From Thereva unica (taxonomy: Eukaryota > Arthropoda > Insecta > Diptera > Therevidae): a stretch of 64,000 nucleotides of DNA. Location of the stretch: NCBI GenBank assembly GCA_949987705.1, contig OX465281.1, positions 156,068,393-156,132,392 of the forward strand, in the 5' to 3' direction. Each line of letters starts with the position of its first letter. The stretch's first letter is position 1. The notes beneath the pieces were generated by a model that was not told the origin of the DNA, searched no databases, and was given only the letters and a program-made list of their open reading frames with translations. The translations under genes and the position numbers were made by a program. This document shows, piece by piece, positions 18,472-36,426 of the stretch.

Positions 18472-19011
18472 TGTTTTTGTATAGCGAGGGAAGCTTTTTT
18501 CGCCCCGCTTGGTTGATGGTGGAAATGCGCCTAGGTACAAACCTGTGCGCTTTTGTTTGGGAAGTTCGCCTAGGTACAAAACCTATGCGCTGTAGAATAG
18601 TGCCCTAGTTCACTACTAGTGCACGAGAAGGGAAAAAAATGTCTTAGGTGATACACCAAAAACGCTTGATTCTAGTTGAAAGTCAACTGGGCTTTATTAA
18701 TTTAAAAATTCAACTTATATACTATCTGGTTAACATATTTTTTGTCTTATTTTAATATTTACAACAAAAAATATTTTTCTTTAAAGACAACTTAAATGCA
18801 TATTCAACAATTAAATTCTTACGTTCTAATGTAATATGATCTGTCTGACTGATAAGAGTATTGTGGTAAAAATGCTACGTTAACAAGAAAATAAATTTTT
18901 ACTGTAATGAAGCTAAGTTGTTTTGTGGGAAAAAATTGTATTACTTGAATTTGAATATTTTTGGAAAATTTAGGTTTTGATGGACTTAAAAATAAATACG
19001 TGATCTGAACA
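18472..19011 (-). repeat. BEL-3 3' LTR
   Basis: The 540-base LTR ends (plus strand) TGTTTTTGTATAG and GATCTGAACA. A repeated GCGCCTAGGTACAAAC-like unit occurs at 18520-18590. The copy at 28930 lacks the segment 18623-18712. Confidence 0.92.
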
Positions 19012-19314: not shown

Positions 19315-19780
19315 CCCTAGATAGCTAACCTCCGTCGAATCGACGGGCATCGCTAAGTAAAATCGCTGTATCTTTTAAACGGTGGATTTAATTGTTTCAG
19401 CTCAGCTAGCCAACTCAGTCGTCGTTGAGGTCGCTGCAGTGGCAAACACATTGAGCAAGTAAGTGTTATAGTTTTTGAGATACTTAAGCTTTGTCCGTCG
19501 TCGTCCGTCGTTCGTCGTCGAATTTTGTTCTTTAAGTGTATGAAAAAAAAAATTGTTTGTTTTTCAGAGGTCTTAAAAATGTTACTGTAATTTTTGAATA
19601 ATTAAATAAAGTACAACTAAAAATACCCATCTTTATTGAAAAACCTTTTAATAACCAGTAATGTAAGGTATCAGGTGCGTGCAGTTTATATTTTATATAA
19701 AAAAATACTTTTTGAAATACACGTCGTTTCGACGGATGGTTAGCTTAAATGGTGTACGCCAGAAGGTTAGCTATCTAGGG
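19315..19780. mobile_element. piggyBac-like MITE with imperfect inverted ends
   Basis: The ends are CCCTAGATAGCTAACC and its inverse, then TCCGTCGAAACGACG-like inner inverted repeats. The right arm carries about 28 extra bases. TTAG flanks both sides (19311-19314 and 19781-19784). CCCTAG ends and a TTAA-like 4-base duplication are the marks of piggyBac-type elements. The 466-base body has no ORF. It contains a GTCGTC-rich stretch at 19495-19520 and an A run at 19543-19554. It splits the envelope gene of BEL-3. Confidence 0.75.
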
Positions 19781-19784
19781 TTAG

Positions 19785-20740
19785 TGAAGTCTTCTTCTAG
19801 GGTTTGCTGGTTTCTGGGCGGTTGAAGTAGTTCTTCTAATTGTGAAAATGGGATGATGTCCGTGAGGTTCTGTGACGGCAAAAATGCTGTTCTGATGGTA
19901 CTTGGGTAGAGATTGTGAGACTGTATTGTTGTGCTCGTGTCCTTGATGGTGCATCCAGGTTGTAGCGTGAGCATTCCTTGCCCCTTCAGTAATTGCTGTG
20001 AGACCGCGCTTCCACATACGAGATTTATGGTGGTAGATTCATTCATATTGTAAATCCAATTATTTGGATTTAATAGTTGTATCCACCTGGGAGGATTCTG
20101 TGATCGGACCAATTTACAACTTGGAGGCGTTGAAGAATGCATTAAGAATTCCACTTCGAATAGACTAACGTTGGACGCTTTCCTGTAGATAGGATGATGC
20201 TGTTGACACATGTAGCTGGAATAATCAATTTTTGTGCATCTTGCAAGCTCTTGATCGGATAACGGGTAATATTGATCTCGATGTAAGTTGATAATAAGGT
20301 AGTTTGTTGAGGGTTCTATAGTTATGTAGCTTCCATTAGCTACAATTGGTAATGGAATAATGCGCAGCAATTCATACTGTTCATATGTGAATAGTGGTAG
20401 TCGCGCTCGGAATATGATGTGATCCTTAACCAAACGACCCTGTACTGTCATCAGGTTGTATACTTGCAATAAGTTGTTCTGACTTCCTGGTAGACGAACT
20501 GTTGAAGGCAAGTGCTCCTTGATAATGGTTATCTGCTCTTGTAGCTGCCTTGGTGTCAATAATTGAGGGTTGATCTTACCGTGGTGAGTGTCGATAATTA
20601 GGTCCAATAAGCTATTCTGCATTCTTTGGTAGTTGGATATCATCAGGATCAGACTAAGAGAGGCTGAGCTCAACCATTCCTTTAATTGCTGCTCTTTCAA
20701 TTCTTCCTCAATGGTATTGCAAGAGTTAACCCTTCTAGCA
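19785..20740 (-). pseudogene. BEL-3 envelope-like protein, main body
   Basis: This is the larger downstream part of an insect retroelement envelope of the baculovirus-F/errantivirus Env type. Such a protein would mediate membrane fusion. The open frame on the minus strand (20799-19771) is about 320 residues after its junction with inserted sequence. It holds a helical region rich in L and Q near the start (EEELKEQQLKEWL) and several Cys residues with possible N-glycosylation sites (NGS, NVS, NES). It is cut off from its N-terminal part by the CR1-group insertion and from its membrane anchor by the MITE, so it is disrupted. Confidence 0.7.
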
Positions 20741-20999
20741 CAGAAGGCGCACTTTACAGCAAAGCATGAAAATCTATATATACATACACATACATACATA
20801 TATATATATATGTATATATATACATATATAGAGTTTCCCTTCTAAGACAGAAGGCACACTTCCCAGCAGAGCTGAGAAATATTTACCACTGCCGTGGCTC
20901 AGCTGAGACATGCAAACATAAAATATTAAAACATAAAAGATCAAAAACATTAAACAGAGAAGCGTGCAAAACTGAAAAGGGAGTAAGGCACGCAGAGAG
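20741..20999 (-). repeat. CR1-group 3' UTR with duplicated terminal hairpin and TA-rich satellite
   Basis: This is the 3' flank of the CR1-group ORF2. Two related units of about 40 bases, each with a CCTTCT/AGAAGG stem (loops AGCAC and AAGAC on the plus strand), lie at about 20730-20765 and 20836-20870. A (TACA/TATA)n tract at 20775-20829 separates them. Microsatellite-like 3' ends are usual for CR1-group elements. The exact boundary with the envelope sequence is not certain. Confidence 0.5.
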
Positions 21000-23909
21000 T
21001 CACGCCACATTGAGAAGGGTCCTTTTAAGGACAACTTCACTGGTTAGCAAGCTAAACACACTCCTATTGTTGTTAGTATTTATAAGCATGCGATTAACGG
21101 GTTCGAACATGCCATAATTGGTGTTAGAGGAGTTAATGTGCAAAAGAGGTTCACCTCTCAGGTTGTAGTTATTCACTCTAAATGACGCGCGGTTTCTTAA
21201 GAAACCAGAGTCCACTTTGTCATTCATCAGTCGATGAACGAATATAACGTCAGCGACCTCACGGCGCTTATGGAGGGAGCTTAAGTTGAGCAATTTAAGT
21301 CTGTTCTCATAAGGCGGAAGAGCGAGTGGGTCATCCCACGGGAGGTGGCTGAGTGCAAACCGGACGAACTTCCTTTGAACCGATTCGATTCTACTAACAT
21401 GGGAGGAATAGTAAGGAGACCAAACCTGGGAAGCGTAGTCAAGCAAAGGCCTAACCAAAGATACGTACAGGTGTTTAGTGACGAGGGGGTTGTTGAACTC
21501 TTTGGACCATCTTTTTATAAATCCCAGGACTGAATTGCCCTTGGAGGAGATATAATTGATGTGGGTGGAGAAATCCAACTTACTTTCTAACCTAACCCCA
21601 AGATCGATTACAGATTCAGTACGGAAGACCTTGTTGTCAAGGAGAGTATAGTCAAAAGTTATAACACCACGTTTCCTACAAAAAGTCATGATCTCGCATT
21701 TAGTAATATTAAGCACAAGGTTGTTGTTGGAACACCAAGAATAGAAGGTGTTTAGATCTGATTGCAGAAGTTTGCAATCCTCTATACTCCTTATGTGGCG
21801 ATACAGTTTGATGTCATCAGCGTAAATAAGGATTTTACAGTGCCTTAGCACGGTAACAATATCGTCAATTGATAAAATAAAAAGAAGAGGGCCAAGATGA
21901 CTGCCTTGTGGGACTCCAGAGGACGCTTTGATGTTCTTCGATTTGACTCCGCGGAATAGAACCTGGTAGGTTCTATCGGCTAAGTACGACTGGAACCAAC
22001 CCACAAGGGCATGAGGAAATCCTAATTTCTTTAGTTTAAGAGCTATAATAGAGTGGGAGAGCTTGTCGAAAGCCTTACTAAAATCTGTATAGACACAGTC
22101 AGTTTGGCAGCCAGTGACAAAGCCTCTAATTGTGTGTGAAGAGAACTCCAGTAAATTAGTAGTAGTGGAACGGGCTGCAAGAAAACCATGTTGGTTTGTT
22201 GAAATAAGCCTCTTGCAGATAGGGGCGATAGCAGAATAAATAATAGATTCGAAGAGTTTTGGTATAGACGATAACTTTGCAATTGGCCTATAATTAGATA
22301 TTTCGTTTTTACAGCCTTTCTTATGGACAGGTATTATAAAAGAGTTCTTCCATAAGGTTGGGAAGCGCCCTTTATTTAGGGATTTTTGAAATAAACATAG
22401 AAGAGGAGACAGTAGGGCCCCTGCACAGGATTTTAGAACAGCTGGAGGGACTCCATCAGGGCCGGACGAAAAATCTTGTGGAAGTTCATTTATATGTTTC
22501 GAGATATCATCCCTGGTTATAGACAGGGAAAAGTTTTGAGCCGTTTGGATTGCATTGATATGTCGAAAATTGTCTTCATCTGGTTGGAAAACAGAGGACG
22601 AGAAAGATTTGAGGAAGAACGATGCAAAATTTTCACAAATTTCGGCTGGATTAGAACTAAGGGAGTTCTCGTATTGCATGGTGTAAGGGTAATTATCAAC
22701 TTTTTTCTTTGTGTTGATAAATTGAAAGAATGCTCTGGGATCACCATACACTTTACCTTCCATGTTTCTGAGGTACTCTTTATAGAGGGTTTCGGAGAGA
22801 GCATGAAATTGGTCATAGCAATTGAGAAATGCATCGAAACTCGCAGTGTCTTTCTTCTTCAGGTAGGTTTTCCAGAGTTTATTCTTCAGGTTTTTGGTAC
22901 GTCTCAACTCGTTGTTGTACCACGGTGGGGATGATCTGGGCGATTTTAACGGTTCGATAGGTACACAGGATGCGAAGGTTTCATACAGGATGGAGTAAAA
23001 TCTGGCTACATCGACATCCAACTCATTAGGTGAGAGCAACCAAGTGAAATCGACCGAAGCGAGCTTGGATGAGAGTTCCTCAAGGTTGGCTTTTTTAAAG
23101 TTAAAGGTAAAGGTTGTCTCCTCTGGGATTGGCTTATTGTTAAAGACAGAACAATAGCTCAGTAGGAGAGGAGGGTGATAATTATCGACAGGTGACAAGA
23201 CAATTGAGCTAGGCTCAACATTCATGTTGTCTGAGTCGGAAAAGAATACAAGATCTAACCGCCTTCCTAAAATATTATTCACACCGCTCATTTGGCACAA
23301 GCCGCAGGAAAATAAGGAATTCAGAAAGTTGGATTCCCTAGAGTTAAGGTTGTTTCCAGGAAGGTAGTTATCGTCATCATCGTAAGATACCCATTTAACA
23401 TCGGGTAAGTTAAAATCACCCACAAGTAGGAGTTCATCTTTGGAATCCATCATATCTTGGATATGATTTATGCAAGCGATTAGAATATCATAGAGGTTTT
23501 GACCTCTATCGTCAAGAGTGCTAAACATATCTGGTGGGATGTAACAGCAGATTAAAAATAAGTTGTTATGAACAAGGGAGACTTTGAGAGCGAGGACCTC
23601 AATGTCTAAAGTATTGGAAAAATCAGGAAGCGTTATTAAGCAACAGTTGAGAAGGTTACTACATGCAAGTAGTACACCACCTCCACGAGCCTCCGAGTCA
23701 ATATATCTATCCCTCCGAAAAACTTGGAAAGAAGAGTCGAAAAGTTCGGCATTAAGAATCCCACTGTATAGCCATGTTTCTGTAAAAGCGATTATATCGA
23801 AATCGCTGGCCGAAGTCGACAGAAACACATCTTGGGTTTTGGATCTGATTCCCCTCACGTTTTGGTAGTAGAGGGAAAGCGTCTTAAGTTTTTTGAAACC
23901 TGTAAAGTG
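21000..23909 (-). CDS. CR1-group ORF2: endonuclease-reverse transcriptase
   Basis: This open frame of about 965 codons encodes an EEP endonuclease (YYQNVRGIRSK, FTETWL, VGDFNLPDVKW, DNYHPP) and RT (NYRPIAKLSSIPKLFE, TDFSKAFDKL, GVPQGSHLGP, LIYADDIKLY at about 679-682 from the GTG at 23858). A thumb/C-terminal region follows (RPLLDYASQVWSPYY, LKLLNLSSLHKRRE). No stop interrupts it. There is no ATG at its beginning: the frame opens after a TGA at about 23910 and the first motif YYQNVRG lies upstream of the nominal GTG start. It overlaps ORF1 by about 55 bases in the -1 frame. Confidence 0.9.
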   Translation of the reverse strand, partial: HFTGFKKLKTLSLYYQNVRGIRSKTQDVFLSTSASDFDIIAFTETWLYSGILNAELFDSSFQVFRRDRYIDSEARGGGVLLACSNLLNCCLITLPDFSNTLDIEVLALKVSLVHNNLFLICCYIPPDMFSTLDDRGQNLYDILIACINHIQDMMDSKDELLLVGDFNLPDVKWVSYDDDDNYLPGNNLNSRESNFLNSLFSCGLCQMSGVNNILGRRLDLVFFSDSDNMNVEPSSIVLSPVDNYHPPLLLSYCSVFNNKPIPEETTFTFNFKKANLEELSSKLASVDFTWLLSPNELDVDVARFYSILYETFASCVPIEPLKSPRSSPPWYNNELRRTKNLKNKLWKTYLKKKDTASFDAFLNCYDQFHALSETLYKEYLRNMEGKVYGDPRAFFQFINTKKKVDNYPYTMQYENSLSSNPAEICENFASFFLKSFSSSVFQPDEDNFRHINAIQTAQNFSLSITRDDISKHINELPQDFSSGPDGVPPAVLKSCAGALLSPLLCLFQKSLNKGRFPTLWKNSFIIPVHKKGCKNEISNYRPIAKLSSIPKLFESIIYSAIAPICKRLISTNQHGFLAARSTTTNLLEFSSHTIRGFVTGCQTDCVYTDFSKAFDKLSHSIIALKLKKLGFPHALVGWFQSYLADRTYQVLFRGVKSKNIKASSGVPQGSHLGPLLFILSIDDIVTVLRHCKILIYADDIKLYRHIRSIEDCKLLQSDLNTFYSWCSNNNLVLNITKCEIMTFCRKRGVITFDYTLLDNKVFRTESVIDLGVRLESKLDFSTHINYISSKGNSVLGFIKRWSKEFNNPLVTKHLYVSLVRPLLDYASQVWSPYYSSHVSRIESVQRKFVRFALSHLPWDDPLALPPYENRLKLLNLSSLHKRREVADVIFVHRLMNDKVDSGFLRNRASFRVNNYNLRGEPLLHINSSNTNYGMFEPVNRMLINTNNNRSVFSLLTSEVVLKRTLLNVA

Positions 23910-25258
23910 TCAGAAATACGCTGTACACGCGTGCGAGGAATAAAACACTTTGAAAAGGCACCAGGAGGCCAGAACGTCGAGTCTAAAAGCTTTTCAGCGG
24001 TGTTGGGCGGTGCAGTCAGGACGAAAGACGCAACCGGTTTGGAAACATTGCTGATCTTCCTGCAGGAAACTGTAGCAGGATTAATAGCTTTAGCCCTAAG
24101 GTATTCTTTAATTGCCTCGCACGTGGTTTCAGGAGAGAAACGGGAAATGAAAATATTTCGCGGTCTGGGTACCGTTATCAAATTGGCGCAGGTGTCCGAA
24201 GACTCAGTATCCCCTGTGCCCGACGGTTCAATGACATAAACAGAAGAAGTAGTTGCCGGATCCGCTTCTGGGGTATAGTCTGAGCCCATTGCGAATGAGG
24301 GGGTGGGGACAGACGGACTAGTAGAGGGGTTAGCAGGGGCGGCATCCGCAGCGTTGACTTTACAACTGCGTCTGCGTTTACCATGCTTTCTACGGGTTTT
24401 CGGGTTGTTAGGAGCCAGACTGGATGCAGCCACCACCGAAGGGGCTTGCTCAAGTATTTTGGTCGGGTCGTTTAAGGCTGTGAGGTTTAAAGTAGCTGCG
24501 TCATCCTCCGTTGGAGGAACAGCCGTGGAGCAGGGTGCAGGGAGAAGCTGCTCCCCTACCTGCAGGGCGCCAGCAGATACTGTCAACGTTGAGGGGGAGT
24601 TTATTCTATCGCTGACGCTTTCTAATTTTACGGATAGGGAACTCAGGACATTGTGATTTTGTAACACTGCTATAGACAGCGGTTCCATATCCGCCCGAAC
24701 ACGTTTCGTACTCCTTTTGATGTCATCTAATATCGGAAAAAGAGGAGCTAAGGAGTTAACAGTGCAGGAGGAAGTAGCGACAGGATTGAGGATCGCCGAA
24801 TGTATGTCGTCGATCGAGTCAAAGACCGTTGCAACCCGGGACGAAAATTCTTGGAATTTATTTATAAGGGTACCCGAGTTGGTCGCAACAGAAGCAAGGG
24901 TGGCGGTCAATGTATCGAGCCGGGCGTTGATCGACTGGACATCATCGGTTAACATCTGAAAATGTGGGATATTTCCAGAGAAAGAATTTAGACGTCCCAT
25001 GACTTTCTCATGACTATCAAGGAAGACATCAGAGATCTCTTTCATAAGTCTCAGGACGTGGCAGGGTTGAATGTCGGAGCATTCAGTGCAAGTTGACCCT
25101 CTAGGAGCCGAAGCTTTGCCACTAACTCGAACGTTGAGGCAGGTAAGGTGGAAAACGCCACCACATACACCATCACAGGAAATTCCGTCTTGGACGATTT
25201 CCAAAGAACACAGCTTACAAAACTGGGGACCCGCCATTGGAAAAAGTAAGGTGGTCAA
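23855..25258 (-). CDS. CR1-group ORF1: PHD-finger nucleic-acid-binding protein
   Basis: This 467-aa frame (possibly starting at the internal ATG at 25237, MAGPQFCKLC) begins with a PHD-like zinc finger: CKLC, CDGVC, HLTC, CTEC in C4HC3 order. A region that looks coiled-coil follows (residues 70-170), then a Ser/Thr/Pro/Ala-rich linker with a basic block (KTRRKHGKRRRSCK). The C-terminal segment (NIFISRFSPETTCEAIKEYL) resembles the start of a small RRM-like fold. ORF1 proteins of CR1 elements bind the element RNA. The frame ends TKT-stop at 23855. Confidence 0.8.
   Translation of the reverse strand: MTTLLFPMAGPQFCKLCSLEIVQDGISCDGVCGGVFHLTCLNVRVSGKASAPRGSTCTECSDIQPCHVLRLMKEISDVFLDSHEKVMGRLNSFSGNIPHFQMLTDDVQSINARLDTLTATLASVATNSGTLINKFQEFSSRVATVFDSIDDIHSAILNPVATSSCTVNSLAPLFPILDDIKRSTKRVRADMEPLSIAVLQNHNVLSSLSVKLESVSDRINSPSTLTVSAGALQVGEQLLPAPCSTAVPPTEDDAATLNLTALNDPTKILEQAPSVVAASSLAPNNPKTRRKHGKRRRSCKVNAADAAPANPSTSPSVPTPSFAMGSDYTPEADPATTSSVYVIEPSGTGDTESSDTCANLITVPRPRNIFISRFSPETTCEAIKEYLRAKAINPATVSCRKISNVSKPVASFVLTAPPNTAEKLLDSTFWPPGAFSKCFIPRTRVQRISDTLQVSKNLRRFPSTTKT
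23888..23894 (-). promoter_or_regulatory. Candidate -1 ribosomal frameshift site AAAAAAC
   Basis: On the minus strand the ORF1 codons TCA-AAA-AAC contain the canonical heptamer A_AAA_AAC in the zero frame. Slipping back one base enters the ORF2 frame (CTT AAG ACG...), which has no ATG of its own. Confidence 0.6.
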
Positions 25259-25310
25259 AAATAATTTCCAGGACGAGAAAGCGAAAATAAACTGCAGATA
25301 ATAGAAATTG

Positions 25311-25431
25311 CTAAATCTGATAATAAAAATTTTTCAGTTTGAGAAGCAATCCACGGGTTTAAAAAAACGTTGCATAACCTTAGGTGAATGTTATCACCAA
25401 AGTAAATAGAGTAAAAGGTTATGCACCAACT
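25311..25431. other. Junction between CR1-group 5' end and BEL-3 envelope
   Basis: No gene is seen here. An 11-base inverted repeat TGCATAACCTT / AAGGTTATGCA (25371-25381, 25415-25425) encloses a smaller GGTGA/TCACC hairpin. This may be the 5' UTR of the CR1-group element or a small rearrangement. Confidence 0.35.
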
Positions 25432-26030
25432 TTGAGGGAGCGGTTAACATAGCGATTGAATTCCTCGAACTGTTGGTTGATGTCGTCGTATGATCTTCGA
25501 ACTATGTTCGTCGTTGAATCACTCAGCGTGGTTTGGTTTTTGATGAGATCTAGAAGATATTTCTGGTTTCCTTCTACCTTGTTTATAACCTCGGACATTT
25601 CCTCTGCGTAGCTGAAGTCGAGCACCCCAAATAACGAGTGTGCAATATTCCCGACAATATCGAGTGGGTCTCTTTTCTTCCTTGAATTTGTTGGAGATTG
25701 AAGCAGTTCATTTGTATCCTTTAAGCCTTGTAAAACATTTCTGAATTGAAAGTTTGTAGAATTGCATTGCGATTGGTCTGTCATTCTACTGCATATGTGC
25801 TTTAGTCTCTCGATCCCGTAACCGATATTATAATACTCTTGCCAATAACTCGTCATATTATAATAGATTACTAAGTTCCACTCATGTGATATTAAGTGGG
25901 TTGGCCCCATACCCTCAAAGTAAATGCCAGGCTGGTTCTCAAATGGAGTTATGGCCACAGGACTTGTGGAGCCCATTACAGGAAAGATAAAGCAAGCTAA
26001 CAATGATAAGGTTAGAGCAGTCCTTGAAAC
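25432..26030 (-). pseudogene. BEL-3 envelope-like protein, N-terminal part
   Basis: Minus-strand frame with a basic-then-hydrophobic start (LTLSLLACFIF), probably a signal peptide. Asn-glycosylation sites and a furin-type cleavage site RKKRD at about residue 110 follow, then a hydrophobic stretch expected of a fusion peptide. There is no ATG at the frame start, which fits expression from a spliced mRNA. It follows the integrase frame by about 25 bases. The CR1-group insertion ends it at about 25431. Known relatives are Env proteins of insect endogenous retroviruses. Confidence 0.7.
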
Positions 26031-26051
26031 CCGTCGGCGTTTCGGTCGTGA

Positions 26052-27488
26052 TTATGGATGTTCTGAGACGCTCGCCAGAGGTTCTAGCTGATGTTGTGGA
26101 GCAGAACCAGATGCGATAGGTTCTGGCTGAATAGCTCGGGAATCCATTGATCCAATTGGGGATGAGTTTTCCTGGTCCGTCTTCAAATCTGAAACGGTCA
26201 CTGTGTCCACTTCAGACGGTATTGGCAAAGGTGCCAGTTTATGTATTGGGCGTCTTAAGACACCGGATGCGGTCTTTACGTCTGCGACTCTAACTAAACC
26301 ATCTTGGCCCTTAATGGTTTTTAGGATTCTTCCTAGTTGCCAGCTTAATACTGGAAGGTTATCTTCTTGGAGCACAACCATGGTGCCTGGTTGGACGTTT
26401 TGGCATCGATTTTTCCATTTATACCTGTGTTGTAGTTCATGAAGGTATTCTCTAGCCCACCGATGCCAGAATTGTGTCTTTAGGTGGGTTACTAGCTTCC
26501 ATCGTTGTAGCAGAGTGACCTTGGTTTGTTCGGCCTGAGGATCAATAACACTTGTCAACGGTTCACCTATGAGGAAGTGACCGGGAGTAAGAGCCGAAAG
26601 ATCGTCTGGATTCTCCGAGAGTACGGTTAGTGGTCTAGAGTTCAGAATCCCCTCAATCTCCACTATCACTGTCTCCAATTCCTCGTATGTTGATACTGTT
26701 CTTATTAACAGATGTTTTGCTGACTTCACCGCTGCCTCCCACAATCCGCCAAAATGTGGTGATTTTGGAGGAATAAAATGAAAATCTATGCCATTTCCTG
26801 TACAGAATGTGGTAATCTTTTCTTCTGAGTCCTTGGAATACACCGAATCTCGTAACTCCGTTAGTTGATTTTTTGCTCCTACGAAATTTGTGGCATTGTC
26901 GCAATATAGATTGCGACAATTACCGCGTCTACTGGTAAATCTTCGGAGGGCGGCGATAAAAGCTGCTGTTGTTAGATCGCTAACGACCTCAAGATGCGTA
27001 GCTCTGGTGGCGAAACAACAAAACACTGCTACGTAACATTTATGCGGACGCTTCCCTCTTAATTTGTAGTGGATCCAGAACGGACCACAGAAGTGCACGC
27101 CAGCGTTTACAAATGGTCTTGCGGGTTGTACTCGCGTTTTTGGCAAATTTCCCATAAACTGTGCAAGTAATTTTGGTTTAGCTCGTGCACATCGCAAGCA
27201 GTTTTGGACTGTTGATCTTGCAGTTGTTTTACCTTTTAAAGGCCAAAACCTCCCTCGTGTTATTGCAAGTAAGTTCTGGGCGCCTGCATGTGAATTTTTA
27301 TGGTGTAAATGTTCCATCAGCATCTTTGTGGTGCTATGTGCGTAAGGTAATAGCATTGGATGCTTTGTGTCGTAAGGTAGGTTGGCTTCCTCGAGTCTTC
27401 CTCCTACTCGTATAGTCCCATTCTCATCAATAAATGGGCTGAGGCTGCTGATGGGACTTGCGTTGTGTACGATGGCTGACTTTTTCAA
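26052..27488 (-). pseudogene. BEL-3 integrase region of Pol
   Basis: The 478-aa open frame covers the BEL integrase: the HHCC zinc region (HLHHKNSHAG, CLRCARAK) and core (HKCYVAVFCCFATRATHLE, LYCDNATNFVGA, PHFGGLWEAAVKS), then the C-terminal domain. The position of the first catalytic Asp is His132 (AGVHFCGPF, usually GVDxxGP), while D197 and E251 are kept. The enzyme should be dead. It is separated from upstream Pol by a stop at about 27558. Confidence 0.88.
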
Positions 27489-27557
27489 TTGCTGAAGCTC
27501 CTCCTTGAATGTTTCAGCTTGCGTTTCCTTAATAAGGACAATTAGCGCTTCTTCTAG

Positions 27558-28775
27558 CTAATTTACAGTCAACTGCCCTTTGCTTCTATCTGCTTCTGTT
27601 TTGCACTTACAGTTCTTTACAAATCTAAGAACGTAAGCCGTAACCCTCTGCATATGGCTAAAGGAATTACGATGGTTGATGGTTTTGGTAACCAGTCCTG
27701 CAACCATGCTTACTGGGATTATAATCTTCGTTTTTTTCTTCTCCAAGTCGCTCGCTGCAGGAACATATTGTGCCGGCCAAATGGATTCCTTCCCATGCAG
27801 GAACGGCTTCCCCAGATTGGTTTTAAGGTACCAAAGCTTTTGACATCGTCCCATCTGCTGGTTATTTACCATTTGGTTGAAAAGGTCATGAAATTGGCGC
27901 CATTTTAGGTAATCGCCGTCAAATTTCGGGATGCTGATCTTGGGAAGCTGCATCATGCTTGGCTGGTTAATTGAAGTGGAGTATTGCTGCGTGGTAACTT
28001 GCTGAGGTACATCCTGTACTTCCAATTTTTGTGTTAGGTGCAGTATTCCTGCTTGGACCAACTGCTCCAATTGAAGGTAAGTCTCCATATTGTAGCCGAC
28101 TGCCTGTGGGTCATCGCTTAGTTCGCAAATAGTTTGGTGGTACTGCTCAACCTGAGCCCAATAGCCGTCAATTGATTTTAATTGTAGCTCCAAGTACTGC
28201 TTGGGTTGCATTTGTCTGTCCGCAAGTGTTTGTGTCAGAAGCCGATCAAGTGACTGCATGATCGCTCCTTGCCTCCTTATCAGCTTCACAATTTGGTCAT
28301 TATTCTCTGTATTACTCTCGGGAGCTGCTGTATGATTAACAGCCGGTTGACCTGTTTTGATCAACTTCTTGATGGCCCCCTTAGATGGTTGATATGCCTT
28401 AGCACCTTCTTCAGCTTCATGGTCGTTTTCCTCGTCGTCCAATTGCAAGTACAACATGGGCCCTGGAAGTTGTGACGATGCTGCATCTTTGAGCTTGGTT
28501 ATGTTGGCACCGATGATCTCAAAGTATTTGTGGTATAACTTCTTTATGGCGTCGAAATATTCCTTCATGAAATATGCATGGCTCAATGGTACGTCTTCTA
28601 GTTTCCTGATCGCGCTATCTGTTTGCTGAAAGGTCTCCCAAGCAGCCTGCAAACATTTCAGTTTGTCTTGGCAGTATTTCAGAGTTCTGCGCTCGGTTGG
28701 AGTCTTCCTGTAGTTGGATATAAGCTGCTCGATCTCTCCCCCACCCTTGCCTTGTGATTCTGCCAGTGGTTCCAT
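27558..28775 (-). pseudogene. BEL-3 Gag fused to Pol by internal deletion
   Basis: The 405-aa frame begins MEPLAESQGKGGG with a coiled-coil-rich N-terminus and a DUF1759-type Gag core (PKISIPKFDGDYLKWRQFHD, about residues 280-320). At about residue 324 (near 27806) it jumps into late Pol sequence (PFLHGKESIWPAQYVPA, then AYVLRFVKNCK). The zinc knuckles, protease, RT and RNase H are all missing. The join is in frame, so this looks like a deletion derivative rather than random decay. Confidence 0.82.
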
Positions 28776-28929: not shown

Positions 28930-29283
28930 TGTTTTTGTATAGCGAGGGAAGCTTTTTTCGCCCCGCTTGGTTGATGGTGGAAATGCGCCTAGGTATAAAC
29001 CTGTGCGCTTTTGTTTGGGAAGTTCGCCTAGGTACAAAACCTATGCGCTGTAGAATAGTGCCCTAGTTCACTACTAGTGCACGAGAAGGGTCTTATATAC
29101 TATCTGGTTAACATATTTTTTGTCTTATTTTAATATTTACAACAAAAAATATTTTTCTTTAAAGACAACTTAAATGCATATTCAACAATTAAATTCTTAC
29201 GTTCTAATGTAATATGATCTGTCTGACTGATAAGAGTATTGTGGTAAAAATGCTACGTTAACAAGAAAATAAATTTTTACTGT
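28930..29283 (-). repeat. BEL-3 5' LTR, proximal part
   Basis: This matches 18472-18903 of the other LTR but lacks about 90 bases after 29087. It is cut at ACTGT (29279-29283) by the 7.1-kb LTR element and resumes at 36427. Confidence 0.9.
29280..29283. repeat. Target-site duplication (CTGT) of the gene-carrying LTR element, left copy
   Basis: CTGT before 29284 matches CTGT at 36423-36426. The other BEL-3 LTR has this CTGT once (at about 18899-18902), which confirms the insertion point. Confidence 0.88.
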
Positions 29284-30034
29284 TGTAACGGTCGGTTGGA
29301 AAATTTATTTTGACGGGGGAATTTAGTTTGGAAATCACCCTGTAGGCAAGGGGAAATTTACTGTAAAATTACTGGGGAGGAAAAGGAAAATTTAAAAAGG
29401 ATAGGCGAGGGAAAAAATGAATAATGAAAGGAGTTTTTTTTGAGAAAAGGAAAGAGTTCTATCTAGTTCGTGGGACAGAATTTCATTAAGCAGTCCTTAA
29501 AAATTACACATAACTACAATATCATATTATCGTGTTATAAAATAATGATATTAACACGTTGATTAAAAGTATACTGACGCGGTTCTATATTCGTAAGAAT
29601 TAAATAAAAAGAAAAAAAATAAAAAAGGGAACGACTAAATAATAAATCATCATCATCAAAAACAACAAAAAACACGACGAGAGAAGATCAGAAAGGAAAG
29701 AAGACGACGACGACGTACGGCTGCTCTACACCACCAACACACCACAACCAACGGGGGGGAGAAAAAAAGAAGCCACAAAAGATGACGTAAAGCCAGAGTT
29801 TATGTTACCTCGGAATTCAATAGAAATCCTTTTAAATTCCGTGCAGCAGTAAGTAAAAATTTCATACATCAAAAAATATATGTAGCTTTCGTGGGTTAAT
29901 TAAAACACAAAAAAAGAAAAAAATTAATAAAAAAAAAAAAGAAGAAAAACAAAAAAAAACAGAAGGATTAAAAAACGCACACGGGAGGAAAGTTTCACGT
30001 ACATTTTGTTTTGCTATTGAAACACAAAAATCGG

Positions 30035-30044
30035 TATATAAAAG
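30035..30044 (+). promoter_or_regulatory. TATA box candidate in LTR
   Basis: TATATAAAAG stands about 1190 bases before the LTR end. It is repeated in the 3' LTR at 35236-35245. Confidence 0.45.
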
Positions 30045-30971
30045 AAAATTTATATTTAGTTATTTTTCTTTGATATCGGTAATATTCAGCGGAGAAGAAT
30101 TATTTCAATAAAAACTGAGGATTTTTGTCTATAATTCGGTCGCAGATCGCAAATTACAAAAAAAAAGAAAAAAAAGGAAAAACTTTAAAAGCGGCTGAGG
30201 ACGTCTAAAATAAAAAAAAAAAAAAATTTAATTGAATTTTGTGTGGTTGGGTTTTTTTTGGTTAGAGGAATAAAATAGAGAAGAAAAAGAGGGGGTGAAA
30301 TTTCGTGTGCTCTGAAAACCCCGTAGGCGGCGTTTTTACAAAATATATTATACTTATATATATAAACTGAGGACGAGAGCTATAGTCAATTAACTGTCTG
30401 GGGTGGAGAAGTTCAACAAATTCTTGCAGTCCAGAAGAATATAAAAAAAAAAAAAAAAAAAAAAAGAAAACTTTCTTGTTGCTTTAATTTAAACAAAAAA
30501 AAAGAAAAAATTTATTACTAAAATAACAATTTTAATATTAATAGTATTTATTATTAACTTGATAATATTCTTTATACTTAGTTGTGATTTGTGTTGCTCC
30601 TTGTCGGTAATAATTACATTTTGTTTTTTTGTTGGTTCAGGAAATTTTTGTTTTCCTCTTCTGTTGATTGTACTATCATTTGTACAAAGTGAGGAGTATT
30701 GGCCAATACTGCGCACTTTAGTGGTAACATCCATAAAGTACGTAACTCGTATTTTTTTTATTTTATTGTATTCGTTCACGATTATTTGACATGGGCAACT
30801 AATCCGTGTTGTTGGTATTAAACTTCCATGTACTGTTTATGTTTAGTTTTCCAGATTAAATGATTATAATCATGAGAATGGTCCAGTGGTAAATTTTTTT
30901 TGGTGGAATGGTTGAGGGGGGGATCATTTCTTTTCAGGGATTGACGCGGCTCAGGCGACGATCGGAGAATT

Positions 30972-31008
30972 ATGGATGAAAGTCAAAGTGGCACCGATAC
31001 AGGTAAGT
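30972..31008 (+). promoter_or_regulatory. Start codon plus splice donor in LTR
   Basis: ATG at 30972 opens MDESQSGTDT and is followed by CAG|GTAAGT at 31000-31008, a perfect 5' splice-site consensus. Both LTRs carry it (second copy at 36171-36207). It may allow spliced messages for internal ORFs or for sequence downstream of the 3' LTR. Confidence 0.5.
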
Positions 31009-31227
31009 GGTGAACCAGCCTCGGTAAATCCCGGCCACACACCCCACGACCCCTCCGGCGAGCTAGCTAACTCCGTGTGGCCGGCGTAGGAGTTCCGGAT
31101 TTTCTTTGTATTTCTTATGTACGGTGTTGGCTCCTTGGCCATTCTCTTCAGGGCCTATGGCTAAGGGGGTGACACCTCGCATAAGTGGCGCCCAATAAAT
31201 GGTCGCGCCATTATGCTGCTACATAAA

Positions 31228-31242
31228 TGGCGCCCAACGAGG
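31228..31242 (+). promoter_or_regulatory. Primer binding site, tRNA-Lys type
   Basis: TGGCGCCCAACGAGG lies four bases after the 5' LTR. The first 12 bases are complementary to the 3' end of tRNA-Lys(CUU) (CGTTGGGCG plus CCA). A second TGGCGCCCAA occurs 42 bases upstream within the LTR (31186-31195). Confidence 0.75.
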
Positions 31243-32470
31243 CTTTTAAAGCCCGTTAAAGTTCCTTCACGGACAATGTAACTTTTCTGGTATACAATAC
31301 TACTTGTGCCTGCACGGCCAACCTCTTATTTTTTTACTGAATGGTTCACCACAATTACCAAGCGCTCGCTGTGGGCTAAGGTAGTACCGCGAGGCCTTAG
31401 CCCTTGTCTATTTTTTCGAATTTTTTTGCAGCATCCTTGTCTAAATTCTATGTGAATTTTTATTTGTCTTCGCTTTTAGGCCTGTCCGTTCACTTACGCG
31501 GTAACTTCTTCGTTTTGGAGTAGCTTCGAGCCATGCTGACCTGCACGGCTTGCTAACAAGCGGTGTTCGCTTGGCTATGCGTGTAGGTGTAGTAGTGGTT
31601 CATCCTTGTCCTGTTTCTGGGGTCGGCGACTCTGGTATCAGGCGTGATACCGCCTGCCACTGCGTCGGTCTTGGAACAGGATCTTCTTTTAATTTTCCTG
31701 GTGGACGTTGAAGTTGGTACAAGGGCTTAACCGTCTTTGGTAACAGGCGTGTTACCGCCTGCCACTGCGCCCCTTGCCCTCCTGATGGTCCATCCAGATT
31801 TTTAAATTCTATTTTTTTGTTTATGTCCTGCGTCCATTTTTTTTCGTCTGTTCTTCCCAACTGATTGATTTTCCGAAAGGTAGCTCAGTTGTGGTTGGAC
31901 AGCGGATCCCCCAAATTTTTTTTATTTTTGAAGAAGTTTCCTTTCTTTTCGTGTCGATGCGATTTTGAATTTTCGTTTCCGTCCTTCGTTCCGGGTTTAC
32001 CTGAAGCTGGGTCGGCGACCTGGATGACACTTGGTGATGACTATGCTTCATAGTTTTCACCAACTGCCATCGAGGCCATCGACAGGCGGGATCCCTGAGG
32101 GGAAGTGTTATCCGTCTCAACCATTCTTCGCGTATATTGAATTAAAGCAAATCACTTATCTACCTACACTAACACACTTTTATTGTTTTATTGCTACCCT
32201 CTAATCGTTGTTGATTTTTTTGAGGTACCCTCCCATAGCACCAATAGTTATTTGATTTGTTCATACACACTAATACACTTTTATTGTTCTGTCTATACAA
32301 ACTAAGCGGCGTTGATTTTGATTCTTTGAGATATACACACACTAGTGTTACCATCTATTTGATTTGTTTATTGCAACCTTTTGTGTTAATGAATTGCAAG
32401 ACTTTTTATCGATTAAATATCCTAATTAATTAGTTTTTTTGTGGAATTTTTGCTAAAACCATAGATAACA
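31243..32470 (+). other. Non-coding structured leader of the gene-carrying element
   Basis: No convincing gene in 1.2 kb. It holds hairpins: GGGCTAAGG/CCTTAGCCC (31373-31403), CAAGCG/CGCTTG (31557-31573), GGTATCA-GGCG-TGATACC (31634-31651), GGTAACA-GGCG-TGTTACC (31739-31756) and a 33-base hairpin at 32031-32063. The three last ones are each followed by CTGCCA, and two share GCCTGCCACTGCG. Possible splice acceptors occur at about 31433 (TTTTTTTGCAG) and 32464. The region probably holds packaging or translation signals. Confidence 0.55.
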
Positions 32471-33022
32471 ATGGCCGACTCGGGCCGTCGCACCTTTTAT
32501 GGCCTGCCCATCCGGCATAAGGTGCTAAGAAGGCCACATTTATTTTCGACTCTATCTCCGTTTGCGAAGGAATTCGTTCCTAAGGCTAAACGGGTTGTCA
32601 TGTCACACTCACTGGACGAGGGCACATCATTGAGTTATCTTTTCGAGGTGATGAATAGGTTAGCAGATATTCCGGGATCGTTCGATACCATTGCGTCGAG
32701 AATCTTAACTATATTTTTCGATTTTAAGAATAATCCCTGGGTGTTAAGTCAGGCAATGGAGGGTATCTTCTATCGTTGCGTGGCGGAACCGGCGTTGTGC
32801 GTTACGGGAGCAAAATTATATGGGCTGCTGGATTCAATGAATCCCGAAAAGGGTAGTGCCTTTAGAAGTCTAGTTAGATTACTGTTGGCCGAGCTGCAGA
32901 GGCTACTTAGGCAGGACGGACTGAATGGTCGTAGGTTACGAGGGGTCGAGTTGTTCTTGTCGGCCGTAAGTACCCATACCCTTCGACGATCAGTTAAGGC
33001 GCCCGGAAAAAAAGTCAACTAA
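32471..33022 (+). CDS. PAIP1-like protein fragment (PAM2 motif plus partial MIF4G domain)
   Basis: 183-aa ORF with a good start context (AACAATGG), starting MADSGRRTFYG. Residues 28-37, LSPFAKEFVP, fit the PAM2 motif (L-S/N-x-x-A-x-E-F-x-P) that binds the MLLE domain of poly(A)-binding protein. Residues about 55-170 (IPGSFDTIASRIL, MEGIFYRCVAEP, VTGAKLYGLL, GSAFRSLVRLLLAELQRLL, VELFLSAV) resemble the first half of the MIF4G domain of PAIP1, which in that protein follows PAM2. Full PAIP1 is longer: the second half of MIF4G and the acidic C-terminus are absent. The ORF is intronless and unbroken within a young retroelement, suggesting a captured cDNA that may still be translated. The identification rests on motif order recognised by eye. 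An unrelated helical Gag is the alternative. Confidence 0.6.
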   Translation: MADSGRRTFYGLPIRHKVLRRPHLFSTLSPFAKEFVPKAKRVVMSHSLDEGTSLSYLFEVMNRLADIPGSFDTIASRILTIFFDFKNNPWVLSQAMEGIFYRCVAEPALCVTGAKLYGLLDSMNPEKGSAFRSLVRLLLAELQRLLRQDGLNGRRLRGVELFLSAVSTHTLRRSVKAPGKKVN

Positions 33023-33524
33023 TGCATTTTTCATTATCGTTTTGTTGGCGTCATCATTTTTTTAATACGTTAATTTAGAGAAAAATTAAATATAACAGAT
33101 CTACACATGTATGTGTTTTTAAGACAGTTATTTGGTAAAAGTTAATAAGGAAATATAATTTTACAAATTAAAATGCAACGAATTTGTAGTATTAACGATT
33201 TTATCATCAGGATATCAGTGGTCGTCGAGAAATTTTTTTTTTGTTTGTAAGGTTATTTTTAAAGGCGGAAAATGTATTTTCATCTCAACTCGGAACTTGC
33301 GAAGCAAAAAATTGTACACAAATAAAGGGGACAGTATCCAGATATGGATGGCGTATTTAACAATAAGCCCACTAGAGCTTGCCGCAGCAGCCGCCAACTT
33401 TTCTTCATCTTGATGTCAATTTCCTCTGGATTCCTGATTTTCTCGTATTTCCCGCAATTGAAATATATTCAACGTATCCGAAATACGAAATTATTGAAAG
33501 TGTTTGCGTGACTGATATTCGGTA
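33023..33524. other. Non-coding stretch, possible captured promoter region
   Basis: I see no reliable gene here. It is AT-rich up to about 33350, then a mixed segment runs into the ALG12-like start codon. On the minus strand 33440-33290 can be read as an open stretch without recognisable homology. It may be genomic DNA from upstream of ALG12 that was captured with the exon. Confidence 0.35.
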
Positions 33525-33689
33525 ATGGGGCTCATACTGTTCTTGGTAGCTCTGGCTCATCTATTCGATGCACCCTTCCCAAACGTGGAGGAGAGCTTTA
33601 ATATACAAGCAGTGCATGATATACTCTATCTACGGCACAATTTCACTCAGTATGATCATCATGAATTTCCTGGTGTCGTGCCAGCATAA
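33525..33689 (+). pseudogene. ALG12-like first coding exon (mannosyltransferase N-terminus)
   Basis: A 54-aa frame from ATG to TAA. It includes [15 protein letters not shown] and [12 protein letters not shown], which match the conserved N-terminal block of ALG12, the ER alpha-1,6-mannosyltransferase of N-glycan assembly. The hydrophobic start ([12 protein letters not shown]) corresponds to the first membrane segment. Similarity stops exactly after GVVP, where the intact protein continues with R-x-F-x-G. This suggests a captured single exon or a breakpoint. Of a protein of roughly 450-500 aa only the first tenth is present, so no enzyme function is possible. Confidence 0.82.
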
Positions 33690-34320
33690 AGACATACGTC
33701 GTTGATTTTCCTCAAGGGGTCCTCTTCACCTTTTGATTTTTGGTCAGGCGTAGGTTTCCCTCGGCGAATTAGTTGCCTGTCGTCCTACTGGGGAACTCCA
33801 TGCAATGTGGGATTGCGTGAGTTGGACTCCAGGGTGCGAGGGGAAACTGGTTCGGGCGAGAATTTCTGAAAGATTAGAGGAGCCGGAAGGGGACAATATG
33901 GAATTGCCTTCAGCCGGATCCTTGTCCTTCCAGATATTCTTCCGAGAGAACCTGCAGACTGTCCAACGGTCAACAGGTTTGTATACACTCCTCACACTGT
34001 CCTTCCTCTTCGGTCAGTCTGGAGAATATCTCTCAGCAGACAGTTTGACTATCGTTTCACCGGGGGGAGTCAAAGGCAATGTGGTATTGCTGGAGACTGG
34101 CCCGGTGGAGCGAAAGCAACCCGGGTTTGTACGAAATGTTTGGAGACTTGTTGATATCCGTCGGGGAACAATGTGGTATTGTCTTCCGCCTGTTATTCGC
34201 AACTCCAAATATTTCTCCGGGAGATTTTTCAGACTGGCCATCGCAACTTACGGTTGCAAGCATGAACCTAAATTATAGTTAGCTTTTCACTCGGTTCGTA
34301 TATTATCAACTAGTTCACGT
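33690..34320 (+). repeat. Diverged tandem repeats in element 3' region
   Basis: A motif CAAT-GTGG(G/T)-ATTG recurs at about 33801, 33893, 34076 and 34168, giving spacings of about 92, 183 and 92. Two blocks of about 275 bases (33785-34040 and 34050-34290) align loosely. The open frames here on both strands have no recognisable domain and look like by-products of the repeats. Confidence 0.45.
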
Positions 34321-34322
34321 AT

Positions 34323-34424
34323 GCCCGGCTAGCTCACTAGAGCATGAGACTCCTATTCTCAGGTCGTGAGTCGAGTCCCACATTGGCGCCAACATATTAG
34401 ACCTACGGCATAAAAAAAAAAAAC
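34323..34424 (+). repeat. tRNA-Lys-derived SINE-like unit or tRNA pseudogene
   Basis: 34323-34390 follows tRNA-Lys(CUU): GCCCGGCTAGCTC acceptor/D-arm, AGAGCATGAGACTC anticodon arm, a TCGAGTCCCAC-like T arm and TTGGCGCC. The D loop is shortened and the anticodon loop reads CTCCTAT instead of CTCTTAA. About 25 bases later comes an A run (34411-34424). A degenerate tRNA head plus poly(A) suggests a short SINE. It is not a working tRNA gene. Confidence 0.6.
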
Positions 34425-34482
34425 CGTCCGTTATTTTCGGCTCCTCACTGCCTCGCGAGTCGGCCTTGTGGACCCGAGGGTA

Positions 34483-36422
34483 TGTAACGGTCGGTTGGAA
34501 AATTTATTTTGACGGGGGAATTTAGTTTGGAAATCACCCTGTAGGCAAGGGGAAATTTACTGTAAAATTACTGGGGAGGAAAAGGAAAATTTAAAAAGGA
34601 TAGGCGAGGGAAAAAATGAATAATGAAAGGAGTTTTTTTTGAGAAAAGGAAAGAGTTCTATCTAGTTCGTGGGACAGAATTTCATTAAGCAGTCCTTAAA
34701 AATTACACATAACTACAATATCATATTATCGTGTTATAAAATAATGATATTAACACGTTGATTAAAAGTATACTGACGCGGTTCTATATTCGTAAGAATT
34801 AAATAAAAAGAAAAAAAATAAAAAAGGGAACGACTAAATAATAAATCATCATCATCAAAAACAACAAAAAACACGACGAGAGAAGATCAGAAAGGAAAGA
34901 AGACGACGACGACGTACGGCTGCTCTACACCACCAACACACCACAACCAACGGGGGGGAGAAAAAAAGAAGCCACAAAAGATGACGTAAAGCCAGAGTTT
35001 ATGTTACCTCGGAATTCAATAGAAATCCTTTTAAATTCCGTGCAGCAGTAAGTAAAAATTTCATACATCAAAAAATATATGTAGCTTTCGTGGGTTAATT
35101 AAAACACAAAAAAAGAAAAAAATTAATAAAAAAAAAAAAAGAAGAAAAACAAAAAAAAACCAGAAGGATTAAAAAACGCACACGGGAGGAAAGTTTCACG
35201 TACATTTTGTTTTGCTATTGAAACACAAAAATCGGTATATAAAAGAAAATTTATATTTAGTTATTTTTCTTTGATATCGATAATATTCAGCGGAGAAGAA
35301 TTATTTCAATAAAAACTGAGGATTTTTGTCTATAATTCGGTCGCAGATCGCAAATTACAAAAAAAAAAGAAAAAAAAGGAAAAACTTTAAAAGCGGCTGA
35401 GGACGTCTAAAATAAAAAAAAAAAAATTTAATTGAATTTTGTGTGGTTGGGTTTTTTTTGGTTAGAGGAATAAAATAGAGAAGAAAAAGAGGGGGGGAAA
35501 ATTTCGTGTGCTCTGAAAACCCCGTAGGCGGCGTTTTTACAAAATATATTATACTTATATATATAAACTGAGGACGAGAGCTATAGTCAATTAACTGTCT
35601 GGGGTGGAGAAGTTCAACAAATTCTTGCAGTCCAGAAGAATAAAAAAAAAAAAAAAAAAAAAAAAAAAACTTTCTTGTTGCTTTAATTTAAACAAAAAAA
35701 AAGAAAAAATTTATTACTAAAATAACAATTTTAATATTAATAGTATTTATTATTAACTTGATAATATTCTTTATACTTAGTTGTGATTTGTGTTGCTCCT
35801 TGTCGGTAATAATTACATTTTGTTTTTTTGTTGGTTCAGGAAATTTTTGTTTTCCTCTTCTGTTGATTGTACTATCATTTGTACAAAGTGAGGAGTATTG
35901 GCCAATACTGCGCACTTTAGTGGTAACATCCATAAAGTACGTAACTCGTATTTTTTTTATTTTATTGTATTCGTTCACGATTATTTGACATGGGCAACTA
36001 ATCCGTGTTGTTGGTATTAAACTTCCATGTACTGTTTATGTTTAGTTTTCCAGATTAAATGATTATAATCATGAGAATGGTCCAGTGGTAAATTTTTTTT
36101 GGTGGAATGGTTGAGGGGGGGATCATTTCTTTTCAGGGATTGACGCGGCTCAGGCGACGATCGGAGAATTATGGATGAAAGTCAAAGTGGCACCGATACA
36201 GGTAAGTGGTGAACCAGCCTCGGTAAATCCCGGCCACACACCCCACGACCCCTCCGGCGAGCTAGCTAACTCCGTGTGGCCGGCGTAGGAGTTCCGGATT
36301 TTCTTTGTATTTCTTATGTACGGTGTTGGCTCCTTGGCCATTCTCTTCAGGGCTTATGGCTAAGGGGGTGACACCTCGCATAAGTGGCGCCCAATAAATG
36401 GTCGCGCCATTATGCTGCTACA
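34483..36422 (+). repeat. 3' LTR of the gene-carrying element
   Basis: 1940 bases, aligned to 29284-31223. The differences seen are A-run lengths, one extra C after an A run, TATCGG versus TATCGA, GGGGGTG versus GGGGGGG, and GGCCTATGG versus GGCTTATGG. Followed by CTGT and the remainder of the BEL-3 LTR. Confidence 0.93.
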
Positions 36423-36426
36423 CTGT

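Follow-up and report, generated by a model that had tools for sequence, protein, structure and literature searches.

An intact open reading frame in the window, the 64,000-nucleotide stretch of Thereva unica DNA analyzed here, is shown by sequence comparison to be a captured copy of the host Paip1 gene, comprising its N-terminus, PAM2 motif, linker and MIF4G, and cut before the acidic tail. The frame lies inside an LTR retroelement, and the whole appears to be an element that depends on a helper and bears a host translation factor. According to PMC10404277, PAIP1 binds poly(A)-binding protein (PABP) and promotes translation via eIF3G and eIF4A, and Drosophila has one homologue, CG8963, whose loss reduces translation and kills the animals as pupae. 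The open reading frame and its recognizable parts are:

32471–33022, + strand: Paip1-like open reading frame, 183 codons, at the gag position
32552–32581, + strand: PAM2 core LSPFAKEFVP, inside the most constrained part of the frame
32612–32968, + strand: truncated MIF4G, residues 48–166, by sequence

The ATG stands at 32471 and the stop codon ends at 33022; translation gives an intact 183-codon frame with LSPFAKEFVP at residues 28–37, exactly as the original prediction had stated. The strict pattern L[SN]P.A.EF.P arose in none of 200,000 shuffles of the encoded protein. A + strand frame of at least 183 codons was reached in 15 of 3000 first-order Markov simulations with the internal composition of the element; such a length is therefore unusual, not impossible, and is not decisive by itself, which leaves homology and conservation to decide.

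Searched as a single sequence, the window frame has PDB and Pfam matches that point to PAIP1, each of them weak when taken singly. Its sole PDB matches below E 1 are the PAIP1 MIF4G entries 3rk6 and 6yxj (E 0.058 and 0.059; query residues 48–163), and in Pfam it meets PAM2 at E 0.0015 with 18.5 bits, the cut-off being 20, whereas the MIF4G family gives no match with this frame alone. Since host Paip1 also scores 18.5 bits for Pfam PAM2, the sub-cut-off score is a trait of this PAM2 subtype and not a sign of decay. An AF2 model of the window frame alone is all-helical with a mean pLDDT of 48, too poor for fold comparison.

The family was then represented by a profile of 18 aligned open reading frames: the window copy and 17 others picked for diversity from 43 loci. 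Searched against the PDB, the profile places PAIP1 at the top (E 1.1e-11) and eIF4G p150 second (E 0.0018), and the other matches up to E 10 include designed helical proteins (E of 0.019 or higher) and, weakly, the PAIP2 PAM2 peptide 1jgn (E 0.88). At E ≤0.1, Pfam recognizes PAM2 in 14 and MIF4G in 12 of the 18 copies, and one long copy, L042, lies above the Pfam cut-offs for both (MIF4G 2.5e-11, PAM2 1.8e-4). The helical region that had been described as MIF4G-like is thus, as far as sequence alone can tell, a MIF4G of PAIP1 type. We set aside a Pfam match to DUF1908, which occurs in 2 of the 18 copies (best E 7.4e-4), is below the cut-off and overlaps PAM2 and the linker. We also make no claim that FYGLPI, close to the N-terminus, is an eIF4E-binding-type motif, as it departs from the consensus and the host has YFGNHI at this point. 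A search of the window frame against a large protein collection yielded 211 candidates, none at E ≤1, and we take the coverage of the collection as the limit. Profile scans gave 29 pattern matches in viral contigs and 67 in genome contigs, none of which was confirmed; records of or near the window genome may be absent there.

The original prediction had placed the frame in a young LTR element, and the anatomy of the locus agrees. Along the window, the element and the sequences that belong to its integration are:

18472–19009, + strand: empty site, a second copy of the target sequence, aligned with the joined flanks
29280–29283, no strand assigned: target-site duplication CTGT, left copy
29284–31223, + strand: 5′ LTR (TGTAAC...TACA), 1940 bp, with the same kind of ends in other copies
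31003–31004, + strand: 5′ splice-donor-like GT (CAG/GTAAGTGG), in the R/U5 part of the LTR
31031–31084, + strand: U5 inverted repeat, CCGGCCACAC and GTGTGGCCGG, 10 bp, from an alignment of 16 copies
31228–31239, + strand: primer-binding site TGGCGCCCAACG, following the 5′ LTR
31240–32470, + strand: leader, like that of a gag-pol element to 32261, plus a 31-bp block ending at 32383
33525–33686, + strand: fragment of an ALG12-type mannosyltransferase N-terminus, 54 codons
33688–34482, + strand: 3′ segment common to other subfamilies, ending in GTCGGCCTTGTGGACCCGAGGGTA before the 3′ LTR
34330–34381, + strand: degenerate tRNA-like stretch, Rfam 24.6 bits, gathering score 29
34483–36422, + strand: 3′ LTR, 1940 bp, with 3 mismatches to the 5′ LTR
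36423–36426, no strand assigned: target-site duplication CTGT, right copy

The whole element occupies 29284–36422, with an internal part of 3259 bp. Its two LTRs, 1940 bp each, are identical in 1933 of 1944 alignment columns, which leaves 3 mismatches and 8 gap columns. The joined flanks match the empty site gap-free across the insertion point, with CTGT present once and about 80 bp extra elsewhere in that copy. The paired LTRs, the target-site duplication and the empty site, all within the window, show a real and recent integration. The empty-site sequence is probably the other LTR of an older element on the opposite strand that we take, by eye, to be BEL/Pao-like. That older element extends over 19771–28775 (− strand), holds a LINE-type insertion at about 21000–25258 (labels by eye), and has its LTRs near 18.5 kb and 29 kb; the Paip1 carrier is inserted into it.

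The primer-binding site is presumably of the tRNA-Lys type. The tRNA-like stretch near the 3′ LTR, which resembles tRNA-Lys, the likely primer, falls below the Rfam cut-off. The splice-donor-like sequence AG/GTRAGTGG is conserved in 14 of 16 copies, and the gag-pol copy has it as well; we infer that the site at 31003 may be used for splicing; no conserved acceptor was seen upstream of the open reading frame among the fetched copies, and the frame lies behind a 1.2-kb leader. An extra in-frame N-terminal exon was considered and rejected, as the ATG that stands just ahead of the donor (at about 30973) in the window group is not conserved in the other subfamilies and no conserved acceptor precedes the frame. 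Fifteen of the 16 aligned copies have the U5 inverted repeat without a mismatch, and L026 has it with one; it is a possible packaging or dimerization signal.

Besides the Paip1-like frame, the only frame of at least 100 codons from a start codon in the element is 33805–34278 (157 codons), for which Pfam gave no match. The long open frame of the 3′ segment (33688–34296) has 157 codons in the window and 174 in L014 (L014:3923–4444, − strand). The 3′ segment is 92.9–93.7% identical in L014, L018 and L019 and less so, over parts, in other copies; its conservation may reside at the RNA level and not in coding. The mannosyltransferase piece, for which we assume the name ALG12, is recognized best in its L013 copy (L013:3701–4162, − strand), which matches PDB 9s6t, a mannosyltransferase, at E 2.6e-12; the window copy matches Pfam Glyco_transf_22 at E 0.066, below the cut-off. 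It constitutes a second captured host-type gene fragment, present in some subfamilies only.

We searched the window frame in its own assembly (910 Mb, 930 contigs), scoring 150 of 271 first-look candidates. The frame has counterparts at at least 150 places (163 matches), with identities from 100% to 40% among the matches listed. By hand count, the matched stretch, which at some of these places is shorter than the frame, is free of stop codons at 136 of the 150 listed places and contains at least one at 14. Some of the flagged stops concern the C-terminal end only: L027, with two flagged, reads open for 195 codons. The frame is therefore open at most of the listed places and not broken in all other copies of the element, the outcome that would have counted against the original prediction. 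A genome search with Pfam MIF4G gave 107 matches, comprising a few host genes and many more carriers, with frames mostly of 257–320 codons. About 60 of these places are absent from the list of the frame search (hand comparison); six such copies and one array were read, and the rest were judged by score and frame length. These copy counts are lower bounds, and duplicated stretches may be included in them.

The primer site is present upstream of the frame in 15 of 19 fetched copies. Target duplications of 4 bp, differing between copies, flank 7 of 8 further clean-ended copies (by eye), and L010 has none. The LTR pairs of carrier copies are 96.8–100% identical, and many carrier copies are young. 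When eight copies were compared with the window, R-U5, leader, open reading frame and 3′ end were found in common, and U3 was unrelated to that of the window save for the first 140–180 bp in 5 of the 8 and a short block (56 to 190 bp) in 3 of the 8. As U3 is mostly unrelated and the rest is common, the cassette is present in several LTR backgrounds.

The long-form copy L042 has LTRs and a 3.25-kb internal part with one 303-codon open reading frame. It lies within an open frame that resembles, by eye, an ionotropic receptor gene (L055-L042-L056, G000:C1:40381200-40390000), and its insertion may have broken a chemosensory gene. At another locus (L054, G000:C4:58686964-58702641), four long-form carrier frames stand in a row with a spacing of exactly 5059 bp, approximately one LTR plus one internal part, and this row is probably a tandem array with LTRs in common.

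The parent PAIP1 gene that the original prediction proposed to look for is present in the same assembly: a 409-codon Paip1-like open frame at G000:C2:155516700 to 155517929 on the + strand (L045 with L052 and L053), located from the Pfam MIF4G matches. Its first 400 codons match PAIP1 in the PDB at E 7.8e-11, with no other match up to E 1, and the window frame is 51% identical to it over residues 1–47 and likewise 51% over residues 49–166. Of the places that were read, L045 alone has a Paip1-like gene free of flanking element sequence. Set against the fetched element copies, the 6.4 kb around the host gene matches only the open reading frame itself and one piece of 5′ UTR, and contains no LTR or leader of the fetched elements. 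This 5′ UTR piece, of 78 bp, is matched at 81% upstream of the open reading frame of carrier L033, which supports the 409-codon gene as the parent.

The host protein ends in an acidic C-terminal PABP-binding region, which we take to be PAM1. This tail is absent from all 9 of the 9 element frames set against the host, and these frames end within or just after MIF4G. The short clade, which includes the window copy, also lacks the greater part of the linker, along with the C-terminal part of MIF4G. To judge from the encoded proteins, the window lineage has thus kept PAM2 and lost the C-terminal part of MIF4G, and its MIF4G is partial, as had been predicted, relative to that of host Paip1. Outside the first 37 codons, dS between host and carriers is approximately 0.85–1.4 (12 carriers), which indicates that the capture is old. 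In codons 16–37, host and carriers are closer at synonymous sites too (16–17 sites only).

Selection on the open reading frame was evaluated from frames chosen for being open from their ATG, a sample biased towards conserved copies, in which pairwise dN/dS is 0.22–0.75 (25 pairs, 28 frames) and the maximum-likelihood omega is 0.47 (28 frames; lnL −7268.6 with omega free and −7339.5 with omega fixed at 1; the best among four kappa values on a coarse grid, with no recombination in the model). Of the 43 loci, 15 were left out of this set: the near-duplicates L002–L008, plus L023, L025, L026, L029, L031, L035, L037 and L040, eight others in which the ATG is not in place, the start is broken or missing, or the sequence is close to a frame already used. 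With the host and six more copies added, omega is 0.264 for the first 37 codons (33 sequences) and 0.427 for the MIF4G region (35 sequences). Within the short clade (19 frames), the first 37 codons give omega 0.305 (2ΔlnL 25.9) and the rest 0.497 (2ΔlnL 32.2), both rejecting 1; a young group of 12 frames, with omega 0.499 (2ΔlnL 12.7), rejects 1 as well; and the longer MIF4G of the long-form lineages gives 0.506 (2ΔlnL 68.9). These substitution patterns show the Paip1-like protein to be under purifying selection, strongest in the N-terminal PAM2 module. The dN/dS comparison that the original prediction suggested is thus in favor of a maintained protein (omega 0.47 for the whole frame, 0.26 for the N-terminal PAM2 module), within a sample confined to frames open from the ATG. 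Since the truncated MIF4G of the window lineage is still constrained (omega 0.50), PAM2 docking would not be the sole thing kept, and something else is presumably bound too.

A DNA query made up of U5, primer site and leader (31020–31700) gave 2600 first-look candidates in the genome, 40 of which were scored. All 40 scored leader matches are nearly full-length and 91–100% identical. By hand comparison, 25 of the 40 are without a nearby Paip1-like match among the matches listed, and the three of these 25 that were read (L057, L058 and L059) have no Paip1-like open reading frame. In L058 and L059, the same leader (88% and 92%) is followed by gag, protease and the start of pol with reverse transcriptase (RT). 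Pfam finds Retrotrans_gag and, by a narrow margin, Ty3_capsid in L058 (Ty3_capsid at 29.3 bits, cut-off 29.1) and RVT_1 in both L058 and L059; in L058, Retrotrans_gag and RVT_1 exceed their cut-offs. The best PDB matches of the L058 RT are 4ol8 (6.5e-58), which we take to be Ty3, and 7q5b (4.6e-57), with the next at 2e-39. By its best PDB and Pfam matches, the gag-pol relative appears to be of the Ty3 type. Reading of the gag-pol elements began at their 5′ side and reached the middle of pol, which for L060 and L058 together amounts to 5.95 kb.

The 5′ LTR of the element to which L058 belongs (L060) is 94.9% identical to the window LTR over its full length, and the similarity of L060 and L058 continues through the leader to window position 32261, plus one 31-bp block. 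After the last common leader block, the Paip1 frame starts at 88 bp and the L058 gag at 51 bp; with a common leader followed at a like distance by either the one or the other, the Paip1 frame occupies the gag position. In L057, a truncated gag is joined in frame to a tail matching the ALG12-type piece of the window, followed by a 3′ end and LTR of the window type. A tblastn search (1e-3) with L058 gag and pol gave no match in the window element, L009–L028, L042, L054, L055 or L056, and matched only L057 and L059. Unrelated polymerase-like frames were seen by eye in carrier flanks and, in L025, between its repeats; L024 has a 309-codon frame between LTR and Paip1-like frame. The window element is non-autonomous: LTRs, target-site duplication and primer site are present, and its own gag-pol is absent. 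Candidate protein-supplying elements exist in the same genome, and from the shared ends we infer that they may supply proteins in trans.

Based on these observations, the reading that we favor, with a confidence slightly above even, is that of a Paip1 carrier that lives on trans-supplied proteins and protects its own RNA through docking on PABP. Related gag-pol elements would supply particle, reverse transcriptase and integrase in trans, and the carrier protein would dock via PAM2 on the MLLE domain of PABP. PAM2 peptides bind this domain, and deadenylase-recruiting proteins use the same pocket. The RNA that encodes the protein itself ends in a PABP-coated poly(A) tail, so this RNA is probably the protein's main target; PABP would be shielded from other, deadenylase-recruiting PAM2 proteins, and the carrier RNA would remain stable and could be packaged by helper Gag. 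In the long-form lineages, MIF4G may still recruit eIF4A/eIF3 as in host Paip1, and in the window lineage, with its shortened MIF4G, PABP docking would probably be the main remaining activity. In both clades, constraint is strongest in the N-terminal PAM2 module, in agreement with PABP binding. It is thus plausible, as suggested at the outset from the motif, that the frame lets the element bind PABP and favor its own RNA or damp host translation.

Chief among the rivals is a Paip2-like repressor, a possible but on balance unlikely reading, in which PAM2 would occupy PABP without working MIF4G contacts, displace Paip1 or eIF4G and damp translation. Its target would be host translation, or the element's own RNA, which would then be freed from ribosomes for packaging. 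A dominant negative of this kind is consistent with the PAM2 module being the most constrained part, with the absence from the window lineage of both the acidic tail and the C-terminal portion of MIF4G, and with the weak match of the profile to the PAIP2 PAM2 peptide 1jgn (E 0.88); it sits less easily with the purifying selection on the truncated MIF4G (omega 0.497, 2ΔlnL 32.2) and on the longer MIF4G that the long-form lineages keep (omega 0.506, 2ΔlnL 68.9).

Already disfavored, and in our judgement improbable, is the reading that the frame has no protein function, and is open through youth or helps at the nucleic-acid level, where small-RNA silencing of the element would also hit an essential host gene. 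Many copies are indeed young (LTR pairs 96.8–100% identical), codons 16–37 of host and carriers are alike at synonymous sites too, over 16–17 sites only, and a conflict of this sort is discussed for plant elements in PMC13317346. Omega, however, is well below 1 on deep branches as well as in the young group, and the matched stretch is stop-free at 136 of 150 listed places. Moreover, a host–carrier dS of about 0.85–1.4 (12 carriers) leaves little DNA identity for small RNAs, save a block of about 66 bp, which argues against a shield.

We regard it as decidedly improbable that the protein mainly aids the gag-pol helper, in translation of gag-pol RNA or in particle assembly, and that the cassette spreads because co-occurring helpers do better. 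The cassette does occur in LTR backgrounds with little common U3 (8 copies against the window), as though recombination had passed it between elements, and a gag-pol element has leader and U5 in common with it, but a public good brings scant return to a non-autonomous copy whose own RNA is not the preferred target. That the frames are a host Paip1 paralogue family merely flanked by LTR elements is scarcely credible: the Paip1 homology is real, but the frames occupy one and the same position relative to LTR, primer site and 3′ end, only L045 is without element flanks among the places read, and chance LTR flanks are refuted by the empty site and the differing 4-bp target duplications.

The preferred reading, a helper-dependent Paip1 carrier that docks on PABP, can be put more broadly as a long-lived animal retroelement of this kind, in which Paip1 is the only conserved protein gene, is shuffled among LTRs and confers an advantage through the seizure of PABP; for this broader claim we consider the balance to be even. 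If true, a parasite RNA would have in PAM2 a means of deciding among decay, translation and packaging. The findings raise a testable question, namely what an RNA parasite without gag and pol gains from encoding a protein; they suggest that the contact is made at PABP, and host Paip1, which Drosophila cannot do without, provides a ready comparison. Capture of host genes by LTR elements is known, and the captured pieces are usually viewed as short-lived debris; here, a host translation factor is kept under protein-level selection across at least 150 places, with the parent gene and probable helpers in the same genome. In the open-access literature, we found no LTR element or other retroelement with a PAIP1-, PAM2-, MIF4G- or PABP-interacting gene, in line with the earlier remark, which knew of no insect LTR element described with such a gene.

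Finally, the carrier can be set beside known systems. With PAIP1 and Drosophila Paip1 (CG8963), the window frame has in common the order PAM2 then MIF4G, a 51% identity to host Paip1 and the best PDB match of the family profile; unlike them, it is LTR-encoded, present in many copies and without the acidic C-terminal part, and its lineage has a shorter linker and a truncated MIF4G. As in acutely transforming retroviruses, a host gene replaces gag-pol between intact ends, and in such defective, gene-transducing retroviruses the proteins come from a helper whose ends are the same; here, in contrast, the ends are of Ty3 type, in a genome assembly and known from sequence, and the captured gene is at a dS of about 1 from its parent. 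The carrier is also like TRIM, LARD and TR-GAG elements in having LTRs, primer site and target duplication and no pol, and in its sister L057 the same leader is followed by a truncated gag; TRIM and LARD elements, however, are non-coding or hold element-derived remnants, whereas the Paip1 carrier codes for a host-derived protein. Bdelloid rotifer LTR retrotransposons have added modular non-envelope ORFs common to several retroelements, as described in PMC5408684, but their extra ORFs (esterase, exonuclease, envelope-like) stand beside gag and pol, whereas here a relative of a PABP binder replaces gag-pol. Maize Bs1 is likewise an LTR retrotransposon with captured host gene segments, as PMC13317346 describes; the present element differs in that the captured gene is a translation factor, the genome is that of an animal, the open reading frame is selected across many subfamilies, and probable gag-pol helpers with the same leader and LTR are present.
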